Positions 870 to 52,233 of a stretch of DNA of 64,000 nucleotides are shown piece after piece. Under the pieces are notes generated by a model. The model was given only the letters and a program-made list of their open reading frames with translations. It was not told the origin of the DNA and ran no database searches. Positions within the stretch are counted from its first letter, which is position 1, and each line of letters opens with the position of its first letter. The stretch spans positions 1-64,000 of IMG/VR virus record IMGVR_UViG_3300030047_000014. The stretch is one strand, 5' to 3'. The position numbers and the translations under genes were made by a program. This DNA is from a virus.

Positions 870-2726
870 TTACACTTCATTTTTCTCTACTTCTATTTCT
901 ATAGGAATATCAGCTCCCATAATTTTTTCAATTATTTTGGTTCTAATTTCTTCTGTTAGTTCTGGATTATCATTAAGAAGATCAGCGACACCTTTAATTC
1001 CTTGTCCAATCTTTGTTTCACCATAACTAAACCAGGAACCTGCTTTTTGAATGATATTAAACTCTACACCAAGATCTACAATTTCTTTTACTTTATCAAT
1101 TCCTACTCCCCAGACTACATCAAATTGACTTACTCTATATGGAGGACACATCTTATTCTTAATAGCTTTAATCTTAGTAACATTACCATAATTTACATCT
1201 CCATCTTTAGCCATTGATTTACTAATTTCTAATCTACAATCAGAATAGAACTTTAAAGCATGACCTCCTTGCGTAGTTGCAGGGTTGCCAAACATTACAC
1301 CAATCTTTTCTCTAAATTGACTTACTACAATAACACAAGTCTTATTCTGAACTAATAGACTCTTTAATGAGGGATAAGCTCCATTATTTAAACGAGCTTT
1401 CTTACCTATAGAAGAATCTCCCATATCACCTTCTAATACTGATTTAGGTATTAAAGAGGAATCTGAATCAATTACTAGTAGATCAAGTTTTCCACTCATT
1501 ATCATTTCTTTAGCAACCTGGAATCCTTCTTCTCCTGAAGATGGTTGAGAAATTAAAAGTTTTGAGGTATCAACACCAAGAGCTGTGAAATAATTTTTAT
1601 CAATAGCATGTTCACCATCAATACACATTGCAACACCACCTGCTTTTTGACATTCAGCTATTGCATGACCACATACTGTTGATTTACCTGAATTATGGAC
1701 TACTATCCCTTGTGCAATAAAATTATTATAGGGAAACTCACACTTAATATCATAGGTTTCCATTTCTCCTACAGAAGTAATACTTTCAATTATATCGGGA
1801 GTAACCATAAATCTAAGGTTATTGTGATTTGCTAAAGCATGTAGTCTATCATGGACAGAGTTACTTAGAAGTTCCAAATTAGAAGGGTTATTATTTAACG
1901 TATTCTCATCAATATGATGAACATCATAGCCTTCAGGTATGGTCCAAAAATCTATTGGAAGATACTCTACAGTATTAAGCATTTTTTTGTAATTATAATA
2001 ACTCATATTATTTTGAGTTGCTTCAAATGTAAGTCTATGGACTGTTTCTCTAAAGTAAGGATAACCATTAATCATTCTTGGTTTACCTCTATAGTAAAAC
2101 TTCATTGTAGTCTCTGCATACTTATTTCTATGAGATATCTTTTCTTTTATATAAGGAGTATTATTATGAATAAATACAGTATCTCCTTTTGATAGATCAG
2201 ATAATGATACATAGTTAGTTCCTGTGTAGAATTTATGATCTTTAGTAGTTTTAATTCTAAATCCATCTTTAGTTATAAGTTCAAAGCATTCTTTAACCCC
2301 AGATTTTACTACATCTAATATTGGATTTCTGAATACCCGATCTTCTTCATTTATGGAAGTCACATTAAACTCTGATTCTTCTGTTATATGATTCCTATTA
2401 TGAAATCTATCATACAGATGTTTGATAGTAGACCCTTTACAGTCTTGAACAACTCCATTGGGTTTGACTGTTATAAATTTGATGTAGGTATCTTCTGCAA
2501 GACATCCTTCCCAACCTATTAGTTCATAAAGTTTACCTTTAGCCCAACCACCAATTCCTAATGTAATATAATCTATTCCTAGTGATCCAGAACTGATTAC
2601 ATCATACTTACCTTTTATTTTTCCATCCAAGGTTAAGACTGTTCCTATTCCGTATGCTTTGTTTAGATGCTCTAAAGCTTGTTGTAGTTTATCTACATGT
2701 ACTTCTACTTCTTTTGCCTTTGCCAT
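870..2726 (-). CDS. recA: RecA recombinase interrupted by an intein
   Basis: A 618-residue precursor. Removing residues 75-345 leaves a 347-residue RecA, the usual family length. The extein shows the RecA core: SLGIDYITLGIGG, the P-loop (rejoined as GWEGSGKST), CIDGEHAID, LLVIDSDSSLIP for Walker B, VVSQFREKIGVMFGNPATT and GGHALKFYSDCRLEI. It polymerises on single-stranded DNA and promotes ATP-driven strand exchange, probably for phage recombination and repair. Because the intein splits the P-loop, the enzyme should be inactive until protein splicing occurs. The start is the ATG at 2726, with a TAnnTTTG-like element about 20 bases upstream. Confidence 0.93.
   Translation of the reverse strand: MAKAKEVEVHVDKLQQALEHLNKAYGIGTVLTLDGKIKGKYDVISSGSLGIDYITLGIGGWAKGKLYELIGWEGCLAEDTYIKFITVKPNGVVQDCKGSTIKHLYDRFHNRNHITEESEFNVTSINEEDRVFRNPILDVVKSGVKECFELITKDGFRIKTTKDHKFYTGTNYVSLSDLSKGDTVFIHNNTPYIKEKISHRNKYAETTMKFYYRGKPRMINGYPYFRETVHRLTFEATQNNMSYYNYKKMLNTVEYLPIDFWTIPEGYDVHHIDENTLNNNPSNLELLSNSVHDRLHALANHNNLRFMVTPDIIESITSVGEMETYDIKCEFPYNNFIAQGIVVHNSGKSTVCGHAIAECQKAGGVAMCIDGEHAIDKNYFTALGVDTSKLLISQPSSGEEGFQVAKEMIMSGKLDLLVIDSDSSLIPKSVLEGDMGDSSIGKKARLNNGAYPSLKSLLVQNKTCVIVVSQFREKIGVMFGNPATTQGGHALKFYSDCRLEISKSMAKDGDVNYGNVTKIKAIKNKMCPPYRVSQFDVVWGVGIDKVKEIVDLGVEFNIIQKAGSWFSYGETKIGQGIKGVADLLNDNPELTEEIRTKIIEKIMGADIPIEIEVEKNEV
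1692..2504 (-). mobile_element. HNH-containing intein in the RecA P-loop
   Basis: This 271-residue in-frame insert begins with Cys (CLAEDTYI, block A), has a block B (KTTKDHKFYTG, with the usual T..H) and ends FIAQGIVVHN followed by Ser. These are the residues needed for autocatalytic splicing: Cys1, the penultimate His, the terminal Asn and a Ser+1 nucleophile. The middle carries an HNH endonuclease (YDVHHIDENTLNNNPSNLELL), so it may also spread by homing. It sits between Gly74 and the Ser of GSGKST. All splicing residues appear intact, so I expect it to be active. Confidence 0.92.
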
Positions 2727-28120: not shown

Positions 28121-30169
28121 TTAAAAATTGATTTTAATTGTTCTTGCAAAACTTCCTTCTACTTTAGCTATTACACTGTTCCTTTGTGTACTGCTGAAAC
28201 CTAAACCACTTAATTGGTTATCAGAACTTTCTACTCTCATCTTATCCCCAAGTGCTTCAAATACTCTTTTTTGTTCCATGAGATCCTGTTTAAGAAACTC
28301 ATTATAGAAACCTCTTGGAGTAGAAGGATTCTTACATCCCTCAAGAATAAAGAAATAGTGTTTGTTACCTATTCCTTGTTGTTGATCCCAATAATTAGGA
28401 CTGGACATTATCATAGATACTTTCTGGAAATTATTTGTTTTAACTCCCCAGATCTCTTTTGTAAATGCAGAAGAAGGCAATGATTTAATAATCTTGAAGT
28501 CTTTACCATCAAATTCTACTGAAGCTACATCAATAGACTCACCATTTCTTACATGTTTATTATAATTAAACTGGAAGATTTGTCCATTAAATTCAATTTC
28601 AGCAATAAAACCTTTCTGTTTTCCTCTAAGAGCAAAATTATTAACTGAGAATCTATAGATCCCTTTTTGCATTTTAGATATATTAGACCATGTGATGTTC
28701 TCAACTACATTTTTATTTCCCTGATTATTAGGAAAACGAACATCTACATCAAGATGTCCTGTGGTTGTAGGATGAACCATATCTCCAAAATAGATATGAT
28801 GTCCTAAAGGTTCTGTACAATGAGCATCAAGATCACTATTATCAGAGGGTTGATTCTCCCCCCACATAACAGAAAATCTTAATACACCTGTAACATTACC
28901 TCCCCTGGCTTTAACAGCTTCTTTAATAGAATCAGCTACTTCTCCATTATAAGACCAACTAAAATTGTTTGCCCATTTAAACATTGAAGGAGCTTCTTTA
29001 TCTTGTGGAGCTATCAGACTCATTAGGGAACTAGTATGTACATTTTCAGGAATAATTTTTATGCTACTTGCTTTTGGTACAATATTATTGATGAAGTCTT
29101 CAATGGTAACTTCCTCAACTTTATTAAGAGTCTTTGGACTAACAGTTACTTCTTCTTTCAAATCATCAAATACAGAAGCATTCATTTTCTTCTTTGCATC
29201 CCTATCAGCAAAAATCACATTATTTACTGTAATGTCTTCAACAGTTGCAAATCTTCTTCCTAGGCTATTACCTAATCCAAGTTCTTCAATTTTCTTCTGA
29301 GCCTGTTCTATTATTGTTTTGGTAAGAACTGCTGTAGGACGCTTGTAGTTAGCAGGAGCCATGATCTTTTCAAATGCTGTCACTGCATAATCCAGATCTC
29401 TACCTTCAGAAATATCTGTTAAGAGAGTTCCTATTGCTGAATTTCTAATTTTACTGATAGCTTGTCCTGCTTTAATAAAAGTTGCCCAGCAGTAATTATC
29501 TCTTTCATTCAAAGGAACCTTTAAATACTCTTGTTGATATTTTGAGAATGTTTCAAGAATACCTTTTGATTCTTCTCCCCTGTATAAAGAGTTTTGAGCT
29601 ATAAGCTCTAAAGCTGTTTTAACAGCATCAATGGAGATTTCCTTTAAGGAACGCTGAAATACATTTCTACTATCTCTTAGAGTACCTTGTTTTGCTTCAA
29701 CAGAATCTGCAGAAGTATCAACAAATTGTTTAGGGAGTTTATAATGAAAATGTTCCCAGGTAGTAATACTTCCGTCTTTCTCTTCAGCATGGTTATGATC
29801 TGTACCACAATTAGCAAACTTTGTAATAAATACTTCCTTAATTGGTTGTAATGTAACTAAATTAGTTAGTCTTTGAGCTACTACATTATAAGGATAAGGT
29901 ACTTGCTCTGCTACATCCCAGATAGATACTAATTTATTATTTACAATAGCTACAACATTCCCAAAAGGTCTTAGGAATTGTTTACAGGTGTTGCAATCGT
30001 GCTCTCCTCTTTCTTTATAAATATTGTTTGTACCTGCAGGATAACTATTCAAATACGTTTCCCAGATAACATCTTTCTCAACATCTGTAAGGAATAACAC
30101 AGTGTTGCTTGCTACTAATTCATCAAACTTTTTCTGTACTGCTAATTTAAAACTTCTAAATTCTGACAT
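28121..30169 (-). CDS. Large conserved phage protein with YfaP-like domain
   Basis: 682 residues. The N-terminal part has a possible zinc site (ERGEHDCNTCKQFLRPFGN ... NCGTDHNH). The region LRFSVMWGENQPSDNSDLDAHC, followed by HIYFGD and LDVDVRFP, matches the core of YfaP/DUF2135-type domains (S-D-L-D-L-H then a YxG strand). C-terminal to this lies NKHYFFILEGCKNPSTPRGF. I do not know the function. Its place between replication genes suggests a DNA-related or early cytoplasmic role rather than a virion one. Confidence 0.6.
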   Translation of the reverse strand: MSEFRSFKLAVQKKFDELVASNTVLFLTDVEKDVIWETYLNSYPAGTNNIYKERGEHDCNTCKQFLRPFGNVVAIVNNKLVSIWDVAEQVPYPYNVVAQRLTNLVTLQPIKEVFITKFANCGTDHNHAEEKDGSITTWEHFHYKLPKQFVDTSADSVEAKQGTLRDSRNVFQRSLKEISIDAVKTALELIAQNSLYRGEESKGILETFSKYQQEYLKVPLNERDNYCWATFIKAGQAISKIRNSAIGTLLTDISEGRDLDYAVTAFEKIMAPANYKRPTAVLTKTIIEQAQKKIEELGLGNSLGRRFATVEDITVNNVIFADRDAKKKMNASVFDDLKEEVTVSPKTLNKVEEVTIEDFINNIVPKASSIKIIPENVHTSSLMSLIAPQDKEAPSMFKWANNFSWSYNGEVADSIKEAVKARGGNVTGVLRFSVMWGENQPSDNSDLDAHCTEPLGHHIYFGDMVHPTTTGHLDVDVRFPNNQGNKNVVENITWSNISKMQKGIYRFSVNNFALRGKQKGFIAEIEFNGQIFQFNYNKHVRNGESIDVASVEFDGKDFKIIKSLPSSAFTKEIWGVKTNNFQKVSMIMSSPNYWDQQQGIGNKHYFFILEGCKNPSTPRGFYNEFLKQDLMEQKRVFEALGDKMRVESSDNQLSGLGFSSTQRNSVIAKVEGSFARTIKINF

Positions 30170-40960: not shown

Positions 40961-40997
40961 GATAATATAGAATCTAATTAATAATGTTAATATCAAA

Positions 40998-41033
40998 TAA
41001 AAAAGGTGCTCCTCTTATATAGAGAGAAACACC
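40998..41033 (-). terminator. Terminator of the tmRNA transcript
   Basis: On the minus strand GGTGTTTCTC pairs with GAGGAGCACC (10 bp with G-U pairs), followed by six T. It lies just after the tmRNA coding piece. Confidence 0.85.
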
Positions 41034-41190
41034 TTAGTAAAAATGTACAACTCTAAGCTGCCATCTTCATTTCACTATTTTCGCCATTTACATGACAATA
41101 CCCATTTTATCAGTTAGTTATCTAAAATGATCTTTAGACTTCTATGATTAGAAACTACCATTTATCTGCTGTCAAAACCAGTCAGCCCCT
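41034..41190 (-). ncRNA. tmRNA coding piece
   Basis: It starts GGGGCTGACTGGTTTTGACA, very close to the conserved tmRNA 5' end (GGGGCUG..CUGGAUUCGAC). GGTAGTTTC (41159-41151) pairs with GAAACTG plus flanking bases in the acceptor piece to form P2. The tag frame follows, then the terminator. The pseudoknot-rich region of standard tmRNAs is largely absent, as in other two-piece forms. Confidence 0.82.
41053..41085 (-). other. tmRNA tag reading frame
   Basis: GGC GAA AAT AGT GAA ATG AAG ATG GCA GCT TAG encodes GENSEMKMAA. Bacteroidetes tags begin GEN or GET and end in LAA or similar, so the start and the final AA fit. The middle and the Met-Ala-Ala end are divergent. The resume codon is inferred to be GGC by comparison with Bacteroides tags; upstream in-frame codons (CAT GTA AAT) could extend it. 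Confidence 0.7.
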
Positions 41191-41453
41191 AATAAATTTA
41201 AAAGTATGAAAGATAACATCTCTGTCTCCTTATTCAGTAATTGTGGTTATCTTAATGGTTGTCCTCTTGTGCACAGTTATCTCTAAGTTGAGCCTTTAGC
41301 TTACAATATTACTGATATACTTTCTATACTTTTTACTAATTGGCGATTAGTATGTGGAGTAGAAGTTTACTATATCTTGGCACTGGAGTTATCATGAATA
41401 ACCAGATATTAAAGAATACAATATTTGTCTTGCGAACAAATGAGCTTCTACTT
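41191..41453 (-). other. Spacer between the two tmRNA pieces
   Basis: About 263 bases that should be removed during processing. It contains AGTAGAAG just after the acceptor 3' end and CTTCTACT about 95 bases later, able to form an 8-bp stem, and a small hairpin (GTTAT-TCATG-ATAAC). No ORF is supported on the minus strand. The plus-strand frames here are artefacts of the RNA gene. Confidence 0.6.
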
Positions 41454-41516
41454 TGTGGAGCTGAGGAGAATCGAACTCCTGTCCAAACAGTTTCCTTTAA
41501 TTTCAATGAATATTAT
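41454..41516 (-). ncRNA. tmRNA acceptor piece
   Basis: It contains TTTGGAC, the T arm AGGAG-TTCGATT-CTCCT and the acceptor strand CAGCTCC followed by A, the layout of Bacteroides tmRNA 3' ends. CCA is not fully encoded (ACAAAG follows), so it would have to be added after trimming. The 5' end is placed just after a TAnnTTTG element. Confidence 0.82.
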
Positions 41517-41533: not shown

Positions 41534-41769
41534 ACAAATTATTAGGACACCGCCTTCCCACGTCCAACCTTTTTGTAATATTAAAATGGTTGCAAAACTT
41601 ACTCCCTAAGTATTAAATTTGTGTCCAGGGCAATTATATCATTGACTGTTACTATTGCGTAGTAATTCAATAGATATTAAATATGTTTTTACAGGCTTTT
41701 TAAGCTCTCACATTCATAGTCGTCTCATAGCAGTTCTTTTTATTTAATATGACTATATAGTCATTGTTA

Positions 41770-47611: not shown

Positions 47612-49645
47612 ATGGAAGTTAAATCTACAGAGTTTTTTAGGAATATAAAGAAACTTCCTCCTCCAGGGACTGAAGAGTTTAAACAACTTATAGATTGGGA
47701 GATTGAGAAGTGTACAGGAGGTGTTACTGTAAATGGTGTCTATTTTTCTAATTGGCTCTATTGGCATCTTAATCATTGGTGGATAAGAATTGATGATGTT
47801 GATAATTATGGCAATGATATACGAATACAATCACTACCAGAACTACGTGATAATGAATGGATTCGTGCAGAGAAACTAGAAGATTGTAGAATACGTAGAG
47901 AAGGTTATATAGAAGTAGGAGGCAGACAGGGAGGTAAATCTGAAATGGAAGCTTCCTACTTTGGTATGAATGCTACATTGTTTAAAAATACCCAGAATGT
48001 TATCATATGTGGAAATGATAATGACTTATCCTTATTAAAGGACAAAGTTGACTTTGGTCTAAAGAAGTTATGGAATGGTATTGCTATTGGTAGATTAGAT
48101 AAAACATGGAGATTAAACCAGATTAGACTTGGTTATAAAAAACCAAATGGTGAAGAAGAGATATGGTGTTATATTGTTATTCGTAATGCCAAGGATGGGA
48201 ACAATACAGAAGTTGCTGCAGGAACTACAGCCAAGACTGCAATTATGGATGAGATTGGTAAATATCCATTTGCTTCTACATTCAAGGCTATGGAACCTGC
48301 TATTAAAGGTAAGAATGGTTGGAGGGCTGTTCCAATTCTTGTAGGAACAGGGGGAAGTTTTGATGCAGGAAAAGATGCTGAAAACTTTTTTTATAATCCT
48401 GCTTCAAATAACTTCCTGGAGATTATAGATCCAGTTTCTGGAAAGAAATCAGGATTATTCTTATCTGGTTTATATAGACATGATTGCAAACATCTTGTAA
48501 ATCTGGCAGATTGGTTAAGAGAAGAAAGAGGTTTAATTCTTGAGGATGATAGTGAATTACGTAATTTCTTAATCAATGTTGCTGATAAAGAAAAAGCTCT
48601 TGCCAAGATAAATGAAGAAAGAGCAAAGGCTAGAGCTAATCCAGATAGAGAATTATCTTTAAAACAGATAATGTATTATCCTATAACTGTTGATGAATGT
48701 TTTCTATCAAGTAGTGAAAATATATTTGATATCGAAGGTGCTAAACGACAGAAGAATAGATTAATAACTAATGAGCATACTGGAACTCCTGTTGTATTAT
48801 ATTCTAATGAAGAAGGGGTAGTTACACATGAGTTTACTGATAAGCAACCTATAACTAATTATCCATTACAAACAGGTGATAGCAAGGAAGCTCCTGTAGT
48901 AATATATGAATTTCCAATAGCTAATCCTCCATATGGATTATATGTAGCAGGTGTTGACCCATATAGACAAGGACAAGCTAAATACAGTCAATCTCTTGGA
49001 TCTGTTTATATTTATAAGAGAATGCATGAACTTACGGGTGAGAAGTATCAGGATATGTTTGTAGCTTCTTATTGTGCCAGACCTGCTAAAAAAGAAACTT
49101 GGGAAGAACAAGCAAGACTTCTAATTAAATACTATAATGCCAGAACTCTTTGTGAGAATGATGATATCTCTTTTATAGAATATATGAAGGCTAAAGGAGA
49201 TGCTCATTATCTTGAGAAACAACCTGACTGGCTAATGGAGATAGTTCCTAACTCTACAGTTAAAAGAGATTATGGTGTACATAGGAGTGCACAAAAGATT
49301 ATTGATTACCTTCACAATTGTTTGAAGAGATATATGGAAGAAACTATATATAAAGAAACAGATGAGAATGGTGATACTGTCAAAGAGATATTAGGTGTTC
49401 ATAAAATATTTGATCCTGTATTACTAGAGGAGATTATTAAATACAATGATAAAGATAACTTTGATAGGATTGTTGCTGCAGAATTAGCTATTGCTCAAGC
49501 TATGAAGATGGATCCTATTATGGGTAAGGTATCTAGTTCAGATGATTCAAGAATTAGATCTCTCTACAAGACAAGAAAGAACAATGTTTTATTTACAGAA
49601 TCCAGAGGACTATTTGTTAAACATAAAAATAAACTTTTCACATAA
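47612..49645 (+). CDS. terL: Terminase large subunit
   Basis: 677 residues. ATPase: YIEVGGRQGGKSEMEASYFG is the P-loop (residues about 101-120), KTAIMDEIGKYPF the Walker B with catalytic Glu, and VLVGTGGSFDAGKDAENF the coupling region. Nuclease (RNase H fold): LYVAGVDPYRQGQAKYSQSL carries the first Asp, TLCENDDISFIEYMKAKGD the second acidic site, and NDKDNFDRIVAAELAIA the last. It pumps and cuts DNA at the portal. It is uninterrupted by introns or inteins, unlike recA and rIIA. Its stop shares one base with the portal ATG. Confidence 0.93.
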   Translation: MEVKSTEFFRNIKKLPPPGTEEFKQLIDWEIEKCTGGVTVNGVYFSNWLYWHLNHWWIRIDDVDNYGNDIRIQSLPELRDNEWIRAEKLEDCRIRREGYIEVGGRQGGKSEMEASYFGMNATLFKNTQNVIICGNDNDLSLLKDKVDFGLKKLWNGIAIGRLDKTWRLNQIRLGYKKPNGEEEIWCYIVIRNAKDGNNTEVAAGTTAKTAIMDEIGKYPFASTFKAMEPAIKGKNGWRAVPILVGTGGSFDAGKDAENFFYNPASNNFLEIIDPVSGKKSGLFLSGLYRHDCKHLVNLADWLREERGLILEDDSELRNFLINVADKEKALAKINEERAKARANPDRELSLKQIMYYPITVDECFLSSSENIFDIEGAKRQKNRLITNEHTGTPVVLYSNEEGVVTHEFTDKQPITNYPLQTGDSKEAPVVIYEFPIANPPYGLYVAGVDPYRQGQAKYSQSLGSVYIYKRMHELTGEKYQDMFVASYCARPAKKETWEEQARLLIKYYNARTLCENDDISFIEYMKAKGDAHYLEKQPDWLMEIVPNSTVKRDYGVHRSAQKIIDYLHNCLKRYMEETIYKETDENGDTVKEILGVHKIFDPVLLEEIIKYNDKDNFDRIVAAELAIAQAMKMDPIMGKVSSSDDSRIRSLYKTRKNNVLFTESRGLFVKHKNKLFT

Positions 49646-52233
49646 TGGCAATTATTAGGTACACCAAGGATGCTACAATAAGGTATGCATACTTAAACAT
49701 CTTCCCTGATCAGTTTAAGACTGATAAAGAAAAACAAGAGGAAGGTTGGATAAAGAATACTATGGATTACTTTGCCAATAAAGCTTATGCAGAGTATATC
49801 AAGAACAGAGAAACTTTCGTTAGAAATTATGATTTAATGAAAGGTATTCTTAGACCAGAAGATTTCTACCAGGTTCCTGAAGTTAAGAGCTTTGCTGAAA
49901 TGCTTACAGCAGATGTGGAACTTCCTGCCTATGTAAAACACTATCCTATTATAACTACACCAGTAAATGAGTTAGTGGGAGAAATTACTAAACGTCCTGA
50001 TACTTATAGAATTAAAGCCTTTGATGATGATAGTCAGGCAGAAGAACTACAATTTAAAACAGATCTTCTTCAGGAGTATGTAATTAATCAAGCCAAGAAA
50101 GAAATATATGAGAAGGCTGAAATGGAAGGAACTGAAATATCTGATAAAGATATTCAGGATCTTACTATGGAGAAGGTTAAAGAACAATTGGATAGTTACA
50201 CATCTGTTGCTGAGAGGTGGGGTAATCATGTTCTTACCTGTCAGAAAGCTGATTTTAATATAAAAGAAAAGAGTGAAGATACCTTCAGAGATATATGTAT
50301 AAGTGCCAGGGAATTCTATCATGTCTATGAAGATAATTCTAAAGTAGGATATAATGTAGAAGTAGCTAATCCTAAGAATACTTGGTTTCTAACAACCCCT
50401 GATAGAAAATGGATATCTGATCCAACAGGTAGAGCACAAGGAGCTTATGCTGCAGGAACAGTTCAGGTAATGGAACTATCAGAGATTATAGAGAATGTTC
50501 CTGATTTGACTAAGGAGGAAATAGATCACTTACGAAGTTCATTACAGGATTATGGATTAATAAATGTTAGAGAATCTAATCTGGGTAATCCTAATGCTAT
50601 TCCAGGAACAGATTCAGTAATGTATGATACCTATGATCCTCTTGTTCTTCAAACAAGAATGATTATAGAGAGTGAGATGAAAGAAAATAGTGATAGTCTT
50701 AAAGACTTTCTGGGTCTTACTTCTAATGTATCTTCCTTTGGATATAAGTATGTGATTGTTAAGTCTTACTGGATATCCAAGAAACAAATAGCTAAAATAA
50801 CTTATACAGATGAAGTTGGTAATCTACAATCTTTACTTGTGGATGAGAATTATAAATCAGGTACTATCCCTACACAAATTTCTTTAGAGAAAGGATGGAT
50901 TAATCAATGGTATCAAGGTACTAAGATTGGTCCAGATATCTATCATGTCAAACCTTTTAATCTTCTAAATTATTGTCCTATTATAGGAACTACATTTGAA
51001 ATAAAGAATACAGAGGCTAAGAGTCTTGTAGATATGATGAAACCTTTCCAGGTAATATATAATATCTGCATGAACCAGTTATATAGACTTCTTGAGAAAG
51101 AAATTGGTAATGTAGCCTCTGTAAATATTCGTAGAGTTCCTAAATTAAAAGATGGAGATGATCAGGATGCTATTGATATATGGGAAATGGAAGCCAAGGA
51201 AAGAGGTATTATATTTGATGATGATAGTCCTGAAAATACCAAAGGAGGTGTTAGTAATCAAACAGTTGCTAAACAAATAGATCTTACTCGTACAAATGAA
51301 ATTCAAAGTAGATATAACCTGGCTGTTCAAATGAAGAATGAATGTTGGGAACTGGTTGGTATGTCTAAACAAAGAATGGGATCTGTATCTCCAAGTGAAT
51401 CTGCAACAGGAACTAATGCTGCTATTCAGCAGTCTTATTCTCAGACAGAACCTTTATTTGTTGCTCATGAATATGTAATGGGACAATTATATCAAGCTAT
51501 TATAGATGCTGCATTATATATTGCCAGTAACAAACCAGAATCTACACTATCCTATATTACATCAGAAGGAGAAGCTGCTTTCGTAAAAGTGAATGGTTCT
51601 GATTTAAAATTCAGGGATTTAAAAGTATTTGCTACTAATCGTCCTGAAGATACTCAGATGTTTAATGAACTTAGAGCATTGTCTCAGGCTGTCTTACAGA
51701 ATGGTGGTACACTATATGATATAGTAGAACTTTATTCTACTAAGAGTATGAGACAACTTAAGAGAATCTTTAAGGAAATGAGAGATAAACAGCAAGCAAT
51801 GCTAGATCAGAAGATGCAACAGGATCAGCAGAAACTTGATCAAGAACAGAAAATAGCTCAAGCTCAGTTAGAACAGGCTCAAGCTCAACATGATCAGGAT
51901 GTAGCTAATGAAAACTATCAAAATGATTTGGATAGACTTAATAAAAAAGAGATAGCTCTTATAGGTGCTGAATCTAAAGGTAGTCTAACAGATAATGATA
52001 GTAACGGAATTCCTGATGTATTAGAGATTAGCAAGTTAGATCATGAGAGAAATAAAGCTATGAAAGACTATAATGTAAAAATGGCAGAGATTCAAAGTAA
52101 GAGAGCAGATAGTCTACAGAAACTTCAGATAGAAAGAGAGAAATTACAAGTAGATAGAGAGAATCAGAAAAATGATCTTGCTATTGCTAAGGAAAATGCT
52201 AAAAACAGAGCAACAAAATCAAAATCTAAATGA
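49645..52233 (+). CDS. Portal protein
   Basis: 862 residues, the usual size for crAss-like portals. It shows the wing-stem pattern (PAYVKHYPIITTPVNELVGE, NPKNTWFLTTPDRKWISDPT, FQVIYNICMNQLYRLLEKEI) and a long C-terminal coiled coil rich in Gln and Lys (KMQQDQQKLDQEQKIAQAQL), about 150 residues, with DLAIAKENAKNRA at the end. It forms the dodecameric DNA channel at the capsid vertex. The late position after terL fixes the call. Confidence 0.88.
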   Translation: MAIIRYTKDATIRYAYLNIFPDQFKTDKEKQEEGWIKNTMDYFANKAYAEYIKNRETFVRNYDLMKGILRPEDFYQVPEVKSFAEMLTADVELPAYVKHYPIITTPVNELVGEITKRPDTYRIKAFDDDSQAEELQFKTDLLQEYVINQAKKEIYEKAEMEGTEISDKDIQDLTMEKVKEQLDSYTSVAERWGNHVLTCQKADFNIKEKSEDTFRDICISAREFYHVYEDNSKVGYNVEVANPKNTWFLTTPDRKWISDPTGRAQGAYAAGTVQVMELSEIIENVPDLTKEEIDHLRSSLQDYGLINVRESNLGNPNAIPGTDSVMYDTYDPLVLQTRMIIESEMKENSDSLKDFLGLTSNVSSFGYKYVIVKSYWISKKQIAKITYTDEVGNLQSLLVDENYKSGTIPTQISLEKGWINQWYQGTKIGPDIYHVKPFNLLNYCPIIGTTFEIKNTEAKSLVDMMKPFQVIYNICMNQLYRLLEKEIGNVASVNIRRVPKLKDGDDQDAIDIWEMEAKERGIIFDDDSPENTKGGVSNQTVAKQIDLTRTNEIQSRYNLAVQMKNECWELVGMSKQRMGSVSPSESATGTNAAIQQSYSQTEPLFVAHEYVMGQLYQAIIDAALYIASNKPESTLSYITSEGEAAFVKVNGSDLKFRDLKVFATNRPEDTQMFNELRALSQAVLQNGGTLYDIVELYSTKSMRQLKRIFKEMRDKQQAMLDQKMQQDQQKLDQEQKIAQAQLEQAQAQHDQDVANENYQNDLDRLNKKEIALIGAESKGSLTDNDSNGIPDVLEISKLDHERNKAMKDYNVKMAEIQSKRADSLQKLQIEREKLQVDRENQKNDLAIAKENAKNRATKSKSK

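Follow-up and report, generated by a model that had tools for sequence, protein, structure and literature searches.

A circularly permuted tmRNA gene of Bacteroidota sequence type in a crAss-like phage

The locus described here raises the question of whether a crAss-like phage encodes a tmRNA in two pieces of permuted order and, if so, to which lineage of ssrA genes it belongs. The window, a 64-kb stretch of a phage record of 120,747 bp, contains a complete circularly permuted ssrA (tmRNA) gene at 41510-41000 on the minus strand. The gene is ordered as acceptor piece, 266-base intervening segment, coding piece, and terminator. A preliminary description had proposed a two-piece permuted order on this strand with a gap of about 260 bases, and all of the elements it gave for that order are present. 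It also likened the order to that of known permuted ssrA genes, and the acceptor part is indeed encoded upstream of the coding part on one strand. Read along the minus strand, the gene runs ...TTCATTGAAATTAAAGGAAACTG-TTTGGAC-AGGAG-TTCGATT-CTCCT-CAGCTCC-A-CAA, the intervening segment, GGGGCTG-ACTGGTTTTGAC-AGCAG..., the tag frame, and a strong terminator. At the level of sequence, the analysis confirms the locus as a genuine permuted tmRNA gene, carried by a crAss-like phage. Its features are as follows.

41457-41510, minus strand: acceptor piece (tmRNA 3′ half), its 5′ end drawn from the TTCATTGA element; the RF04321 match begins at 41496
41498-41504, minus strand: possible distal P2 strand GAAAUUA, seven pairs with 41151-41157 including one G-U, by eye
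41486-41490, minus strand: P2 strand CUGUU of the acceptor piece, from P2 covariation in 31 distinct permuted genes
41464-41480, minus strand: T arm AGGAG-TTCGATT-CTCCT, 5/5 pairs, from sequence and RF04321 alignment
41457-41463, minus strand: acceptor 3′ strand CAGCTCC, then A (41456) and CAA; CCA is not encoded
41190-41455, minus strand: intervening segment of 266 bases counted from after the discriminator A, presumed removed
41183-41189, minus strand: acceptor 5′ strand GGGGCTG, 7/7 pairs with 41457-41463 including G3-U70
41171-41182, minus strand: D-like loop ACTGGTTTTGAC with Bacteroidota-type TTTTGAC, from sequence comparison
41166-41170, minus strand: P2 strand AGCAG of the coding piece, from P2 covariation
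41053-41085, minus strand: tag reading frame GENSEMKMAA-stop, with resume codon GGC at 41085 after TAAAT and stop codon TAG
40997-41035, minus strand: intrinsic terminator AAGGTGTTTCTCTC...GAGGAGCACCTTTTTT, fold z -3.7

The 5′ piece GGGGCTGACTGGTTTTGAC occupies 41189-41171 and the TTTGGAC of the 3′ piece occupies 41487-41481, both on the minus strand. The motif of each piece has a single occurrence in the 64 kb and is absent from all 100 dinucleotide shuffles. The acceptor strands pair at all seven positions, as first reported, and include a G3-U70 wobble that is also found in 31/31 distinct relatives. This wobble is a mark of alanine acceptors, namely tRNA-Ala and tmRNA. Both a T arm with a TTCGA loop and a reduced D arm ending in GAC are present. 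The tag frame ends in Ala-Ala-stop (GENSEMKMAA-stop), again as first reported.

The P2 helix that joins the pieces is probably formed by AGCAG (41170-41166) and CUGUU (41490-41486), which make five pairs directly after GAC and follow the pattern AGCnn with nnGUU. This helix takes the place of the P2-like pairing of GGTAGTTTC with GAAACTG in the preliminary description, which is not conserved across the 31 distinct permuted genes. P2 is perhaps extended by UAGUUUC (41157-41151) with GAAAUUA (41504-41498), a pairing drawn by eye. An element of the TTCATTGA type, TTCRTTGA (41503-41510 in the window), precedes GGAC by 26-29 bases in roughly half of the distinct permuted genes and is absent from the corresponding position in one-piece genes; it may be an internal loop that separates proximal from distal P2.

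Immediately past the tmRNA 3′ end, at 41358-41455, the intervening segment has a 7-bp helix, GTAGAAG/CTTCTAC, with TCCA after it. The fold of this part has a z-score of -2.0, and that of the whole segment -0.8. The helix and TCCA suggested a decayed tRNA at 41358-41455, which was rejected when no clover leaf was found; an intron or a known RNA was likewise rejected, with no Rfam match to the segment up to an E-value of 10. Among the relatives, intervening segments range from 17 to 267 bases and have no conserved sequence. The region upstream, 41555-41690, was also rejected as a structured RNA (z -0.6 to -1.2).

The Rfam model RF04321 (tmRNA_permuted), a merger of RF01849, RF01850, and RF01851, aligns across both pieces in permuted order, with an E-value of 1.2e-5 when 2.5 kb is searched and 1.4e-7 over the whole 120,747-bp record. 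The model check proposed at the outset yields a match of the expected layout, at a score of 38.6 bits, short of the 47 bits that the family's curated cut-off requires. Part of the score may be lost to the long intervening insert; relatives score 49-82 bits. The companion check with ARAGORN did not bear out the proposal: the program does not report the gene at 41510-41000 in the window. ARAGORN does call permuted genes with intervening segments of up to about 200 bases (L085), and it misses both the window gene and a second locus (L060), each with a segment of about 265 bases. Members with long intervening segments escape both ARAGORN and the RF04321 cut-off, and counts of phage tmRNA genes are therefore too low.

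A motif search of IMG/VR, together with a script and RF04321, identified 40 loci of this permuted layout, and 31 of these are distinct in their paired segments. The tally includes the window, one locus in a Bacteroidota genome, and a few GenBank phages. The script required paired acceptor and T stems, so pairing there is perfect by construction, and P2 pairs were not a criterion. P2 pairs hold in 103/124 cells across the 31 distinct genes, compared with a mean of 78 and a maximum of 96 in 5000 shuffles, and acceptor pair 5 is seen as C-G, G-C, A-T, and T-A. Acceptor pieces are predicted to form more stable duplexes with the coding piece of their own gene than with that of another, with a mean of -16.4 kcal/mol for true partners; the lowest of 5000 shuffles reaches -13.4. 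The inter-piece helix of the window gene is among the weakest of the set at -8.1 kcal/mol, ranking 29/35 in one direction and 4/35 in the other. IMG/VR yielded no close relative of the window locus, and an exact-match query with the 5′ piece of the gene found nothing there.

At least eight other crAss-like phages have a permuted tmRNA: three IMG/VR genomes of 123-131 kb that contain both a crAss-type portal and the permuted gene, and five crAss-like gut phages in RefSeq (cr10_1, cr7_1, cr114_1, cr124_1, and cr125_1). These five are annotated with SsrA, and ARAGORN calls all of them permuted. The same is true of Maribacter phage Panino and Chryseobacterium phage MA9V-3. The intervening segment of cr114_1 encloses a tRNA-His gene (L284, 1255-1327), an arrangement in which tRNA processing would free the tmRNA ends too. 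The Aurodevirus genomes cr114_1 and cr125_1 also have a RAGATH-9 RNA (154 bits) that lies close upstream of the permuted gene or extends into its start (L284, 731-898; L285, 999-1167). Four further intervening segments (L009, L108, L110, and L115) have in common CTAACCCGTCGCGTTAGTACGG, an element with the potential to fold into an H-type pseudoknot of CUAAC/GUUAG with CCGU/ACGG.

Three other readings of the locus were weighed. A decayed or non-coding copy is improbable. Its tRNA-like domain, if still active, would bind SmpB and inhibit host trans-translation, as proposed for mycobacteriophage DS6A, whose gene with only the tmRNA domain is a precedent (PMC4131195, PMC11915505). The weak P2, the RF04321 score under the cut-off, and the long intervening segment are all consistent with decay; however, the tag frame is intact from its resume codon of Bacteroidota type to Ala-Ala-stop, pairing is complete in the acceptor and T stems and includes G3-U70, and a terminator lies directly downstream. 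Less probable still is that the pieces are remnants of integration, with the 3′ part as an attachment-site copy of a host ssrA and the 5′ part as carried-over host DNA. ssrA is a frequent integration target of phages and islands, and the 3′ piece resembles Bacteroidota host genes, but attachment fragments would not retain a paired 5′ half, a tag, and P2, and the coding piece has its own terminator; the attachment-site remnant was rejected on the recurrence of the permuted order with covarying P2 in about 40 loci. An ordinary one-piece tmRNA with its 5′ half upstream has a negligible chance and is refuted by the sequence itself, as the RF00023 match (25.7 bits, 41559-41453) includes neither a 5′ tRNA-like strand (GGGG..GAC) nor a tag, and the real 5′ strand lies 266 bases downstream and pairs 7/7.

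With the permuted tmRNA gene as the preferred reading, its lineage can be addressed through its signature of TTTTGAC, TTTGGAC, a GGC resume codon, and a GEN tag, which is that of one-piece Bacteroidota genes. The D loop ends in TTTGAC in 40/40 permuted genes, TTT precedes GGAC in 38/40, and GACAGC is present in 36/40; TTTGGAC was part of the search pattern, whereas TTTGAC and GACAGC were not. One-piece genes that share the 3′ motif in bacterial genomes belong, judged by record title, almost entirely to Bacteroidota, and TTTGAC and GACAGC are common to 94/95 of those scored. The resume context of the window gene, TAAATGGC, matches one-piece Bacteroidota genes, which in the fetched examples place GGC in the contexts TAAATGGC and TAACTGGC and encode tags such as GENNYALAA. 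The resume codon lies 104 bases from the 5′ end in the window gene and about 95-100 bases in the one-piece Bacteroidota genes read, compared with 60-72 bases in most other permuted phage genes scored.

The window gene lacks the UUUCGAC/CCGGAC signature of the alpha, beta, and cyano permuted lineages. These two motifs form the RF04321 consensus, in contrast to TTTTGAC and TTTGGAC in the window gene, and alpha, beta, and cyano permuted genes in phages (L289-L292) have UUCGA(C). The signature is not absolute, as MA9V-3 has TTTCGAC. The kinship with these three lineages that had been implied is not supported, given a tRNA-like domain of Bacteroidota type. A pairwise-score test of nearest groups did not separate permuted from one-piece relatives, the domain being too short for a tree.

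The earlier statement that Bacteroidota ssrA is a one-piece gene agrees with the same-signature genes that could be scored, 95 of which are one-piece and none permuted. The Bacteroidota-type permuted pattern with a short intervening segment occurs in 0/84,980 species genomes, compared with 14 viral contigs, and RF04321 gives one match above its cut-off over 395 Bacteroidota genomes (G285). This match was considered as a Bacteroidota host with a permuted gene and rejected: it lies in a region that encodes a polymerase, helicase, and exonuclease of phage type, and a normal one-piece gene is present elsewhere in the genome, so the permuted gene there is phage-borne. As far as searched, the permuted form in the Bacteroidota sequence type is confined to phages. 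It is plausible but unproved, and in our judgment a little short of an even prospect, that these genes form a fourth permuted lineage, derived from the one-piece gene of the hosts and restricted to Bacteroidota phages. If true, a gene architecture was altered within viruses without ever becoming fixed in the host phylum.

By its predicted proteins, the genome is crAss-like (Crassvirales). The record encodes a crAss-type portal (phrog_6547, E 1.7e-97), a large terminase (phrog_6681), and a major head protein (phrog_11589), and the portal matches mostly crAss-like phage records. The lowest E-value of the portal (49645-52233, plus strand) is to Leptolyngbya phage Lbo-JY46, at 29% identity. Lbo-JY46 is a cyanobacterial phage with a crAss-like layout, and the host phylum is thus not certain from the portal. 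The Bacteroidota type of the predicted tmRNA argues for a Bacteroidota host. No gene for SmpB turned up in the record, in line with a supply of this protein by the host.

No tRNA gene was found in the 120.7-kb record by ARAGORN or by Rfam at its cut-offs, compared with 17-25 tRNAs in relatives such as Lbo-JY46 and phi-crAss001. A UvsX-like recombinase reading frame (window 870-2726, minus strand) contains an in-frame HNH endonuclease stretch at residues ~227-303, which suggests an intein or homing insertion. A 682-residue protein of unknown function (window 28121-30169, minus strand) matches phrog_1735 over its full length (886 bits), a conservation far above that of the structural genes.

The gene is very probably a phage-encoded circularly permuted ssrA of Bacteroidota sequence type that gives a two-piece, host-assisted rescue tmRNA. 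The order, pairings, signature, tag frame, and relatives come directly from the sequences, as does the failure to find an SmpB gene; how the RNA may be transcribed, cut, charged, and used for tagging, and how the phage may benefit, is inferred. One precursor transcript would contain the acceptor piece, intervening segment, coding piece, and terminator. RNase P would cut ahead of GGGG at 41189, and trimming would set the 3′ end at the discriminator A (41456). CCA is not encoded and would thus be added by the host. The resulting two-piece tmRNA would be joined by the acceptor stem and P2, charged by host alanyl-tRNA synthetase via G3-U70, and used with host SmpB. During infection, it would rescue stalled ribosomes and add the GENSEMKMAA tag. 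The phage may benefit by maintaining ribosome rescue while host transcripts decay, or by marking host and phage fragments for proteolysis.

Within the searches made, Bacteroidota-type permuted genes are found in phages and not in hosts, a wider pattern that deserves a proper survey. The phages of one phylum retain a rescue-RNA gene in an architecture that their hosts seem not to use. Why phages favor permutation is a testable question, with processing among tRNA clusters, escape from host nucleases, and immunity to ssrA-targeted integration as candidate answers; what a phage gains from its own tag is another.

Phage-borne two-piece tmRNA is already known and published, mostly from marine phages. 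The implied novelty in a crAss-like phage does not stand, as permuted SsrA genes are already in the RefSeq records of the five gut phages named above. A search of open-access full text listed no paper whose entry points to permuted tmRNA in crAss-like phages, although Table S1 of PMC9004378 may list some. Like the window gene, the five RefSeq genes belong to Crassvirales and have acceptor-first order and a TTTGAC-type D loop; RF04321 scores 49.6-66.4 bits in the four listed at its cut-off. They differ in their shorter intervening segments, in tags such as GNNFVTDYTQLAVA, and in being detected by ARAGORN. Panino (PP540027) has the same order, shares GACAGCAGA and AACTGTTTGGAC with the window gene, and has a Bacteroidota host, but it is a 77-kb podovirus with 20 tRNAs and a 40-base intervening segment. 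The paper on Panino reports an SsrA gene and does not mention permutation (PMC11590407).

Pelagiphages, cyanophages, and the OM43 phage Melnitz likewise carry circularly permuted ssrA, and PMC9004378 tallies 53 two-piece structures in phage genomes, of which 50 are marine or aquatic. These tmRNAs are of alpha or cyano type with UUCGAC, with tags that start with Ala in the examples read, and their hosts are marine proteobacteria and cyanobacteria (PMC9004378). In bacteria, permuted ssrA is described in Alphaproteobacteria, Betaproteobacteria, and Cyanobacteria (PMC11915505). The corresponding models (RF01849, RF01850, and RF01851) share the order and tRNA-like domain architecture of the window gene but have UUUCGAC/CCGGAC in place of TTTTGAC/TTTGGAC and include no Bacteroidota member. 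One-piece Bacteroidota ssrA shares with the window gene TTTTGAC, TTTGGAC, GACAGC, a resume codon, GGC, at a distance of about 100 bases from the 5′ end, and a GEN tag, and differs from it in that the window gene is permuted.
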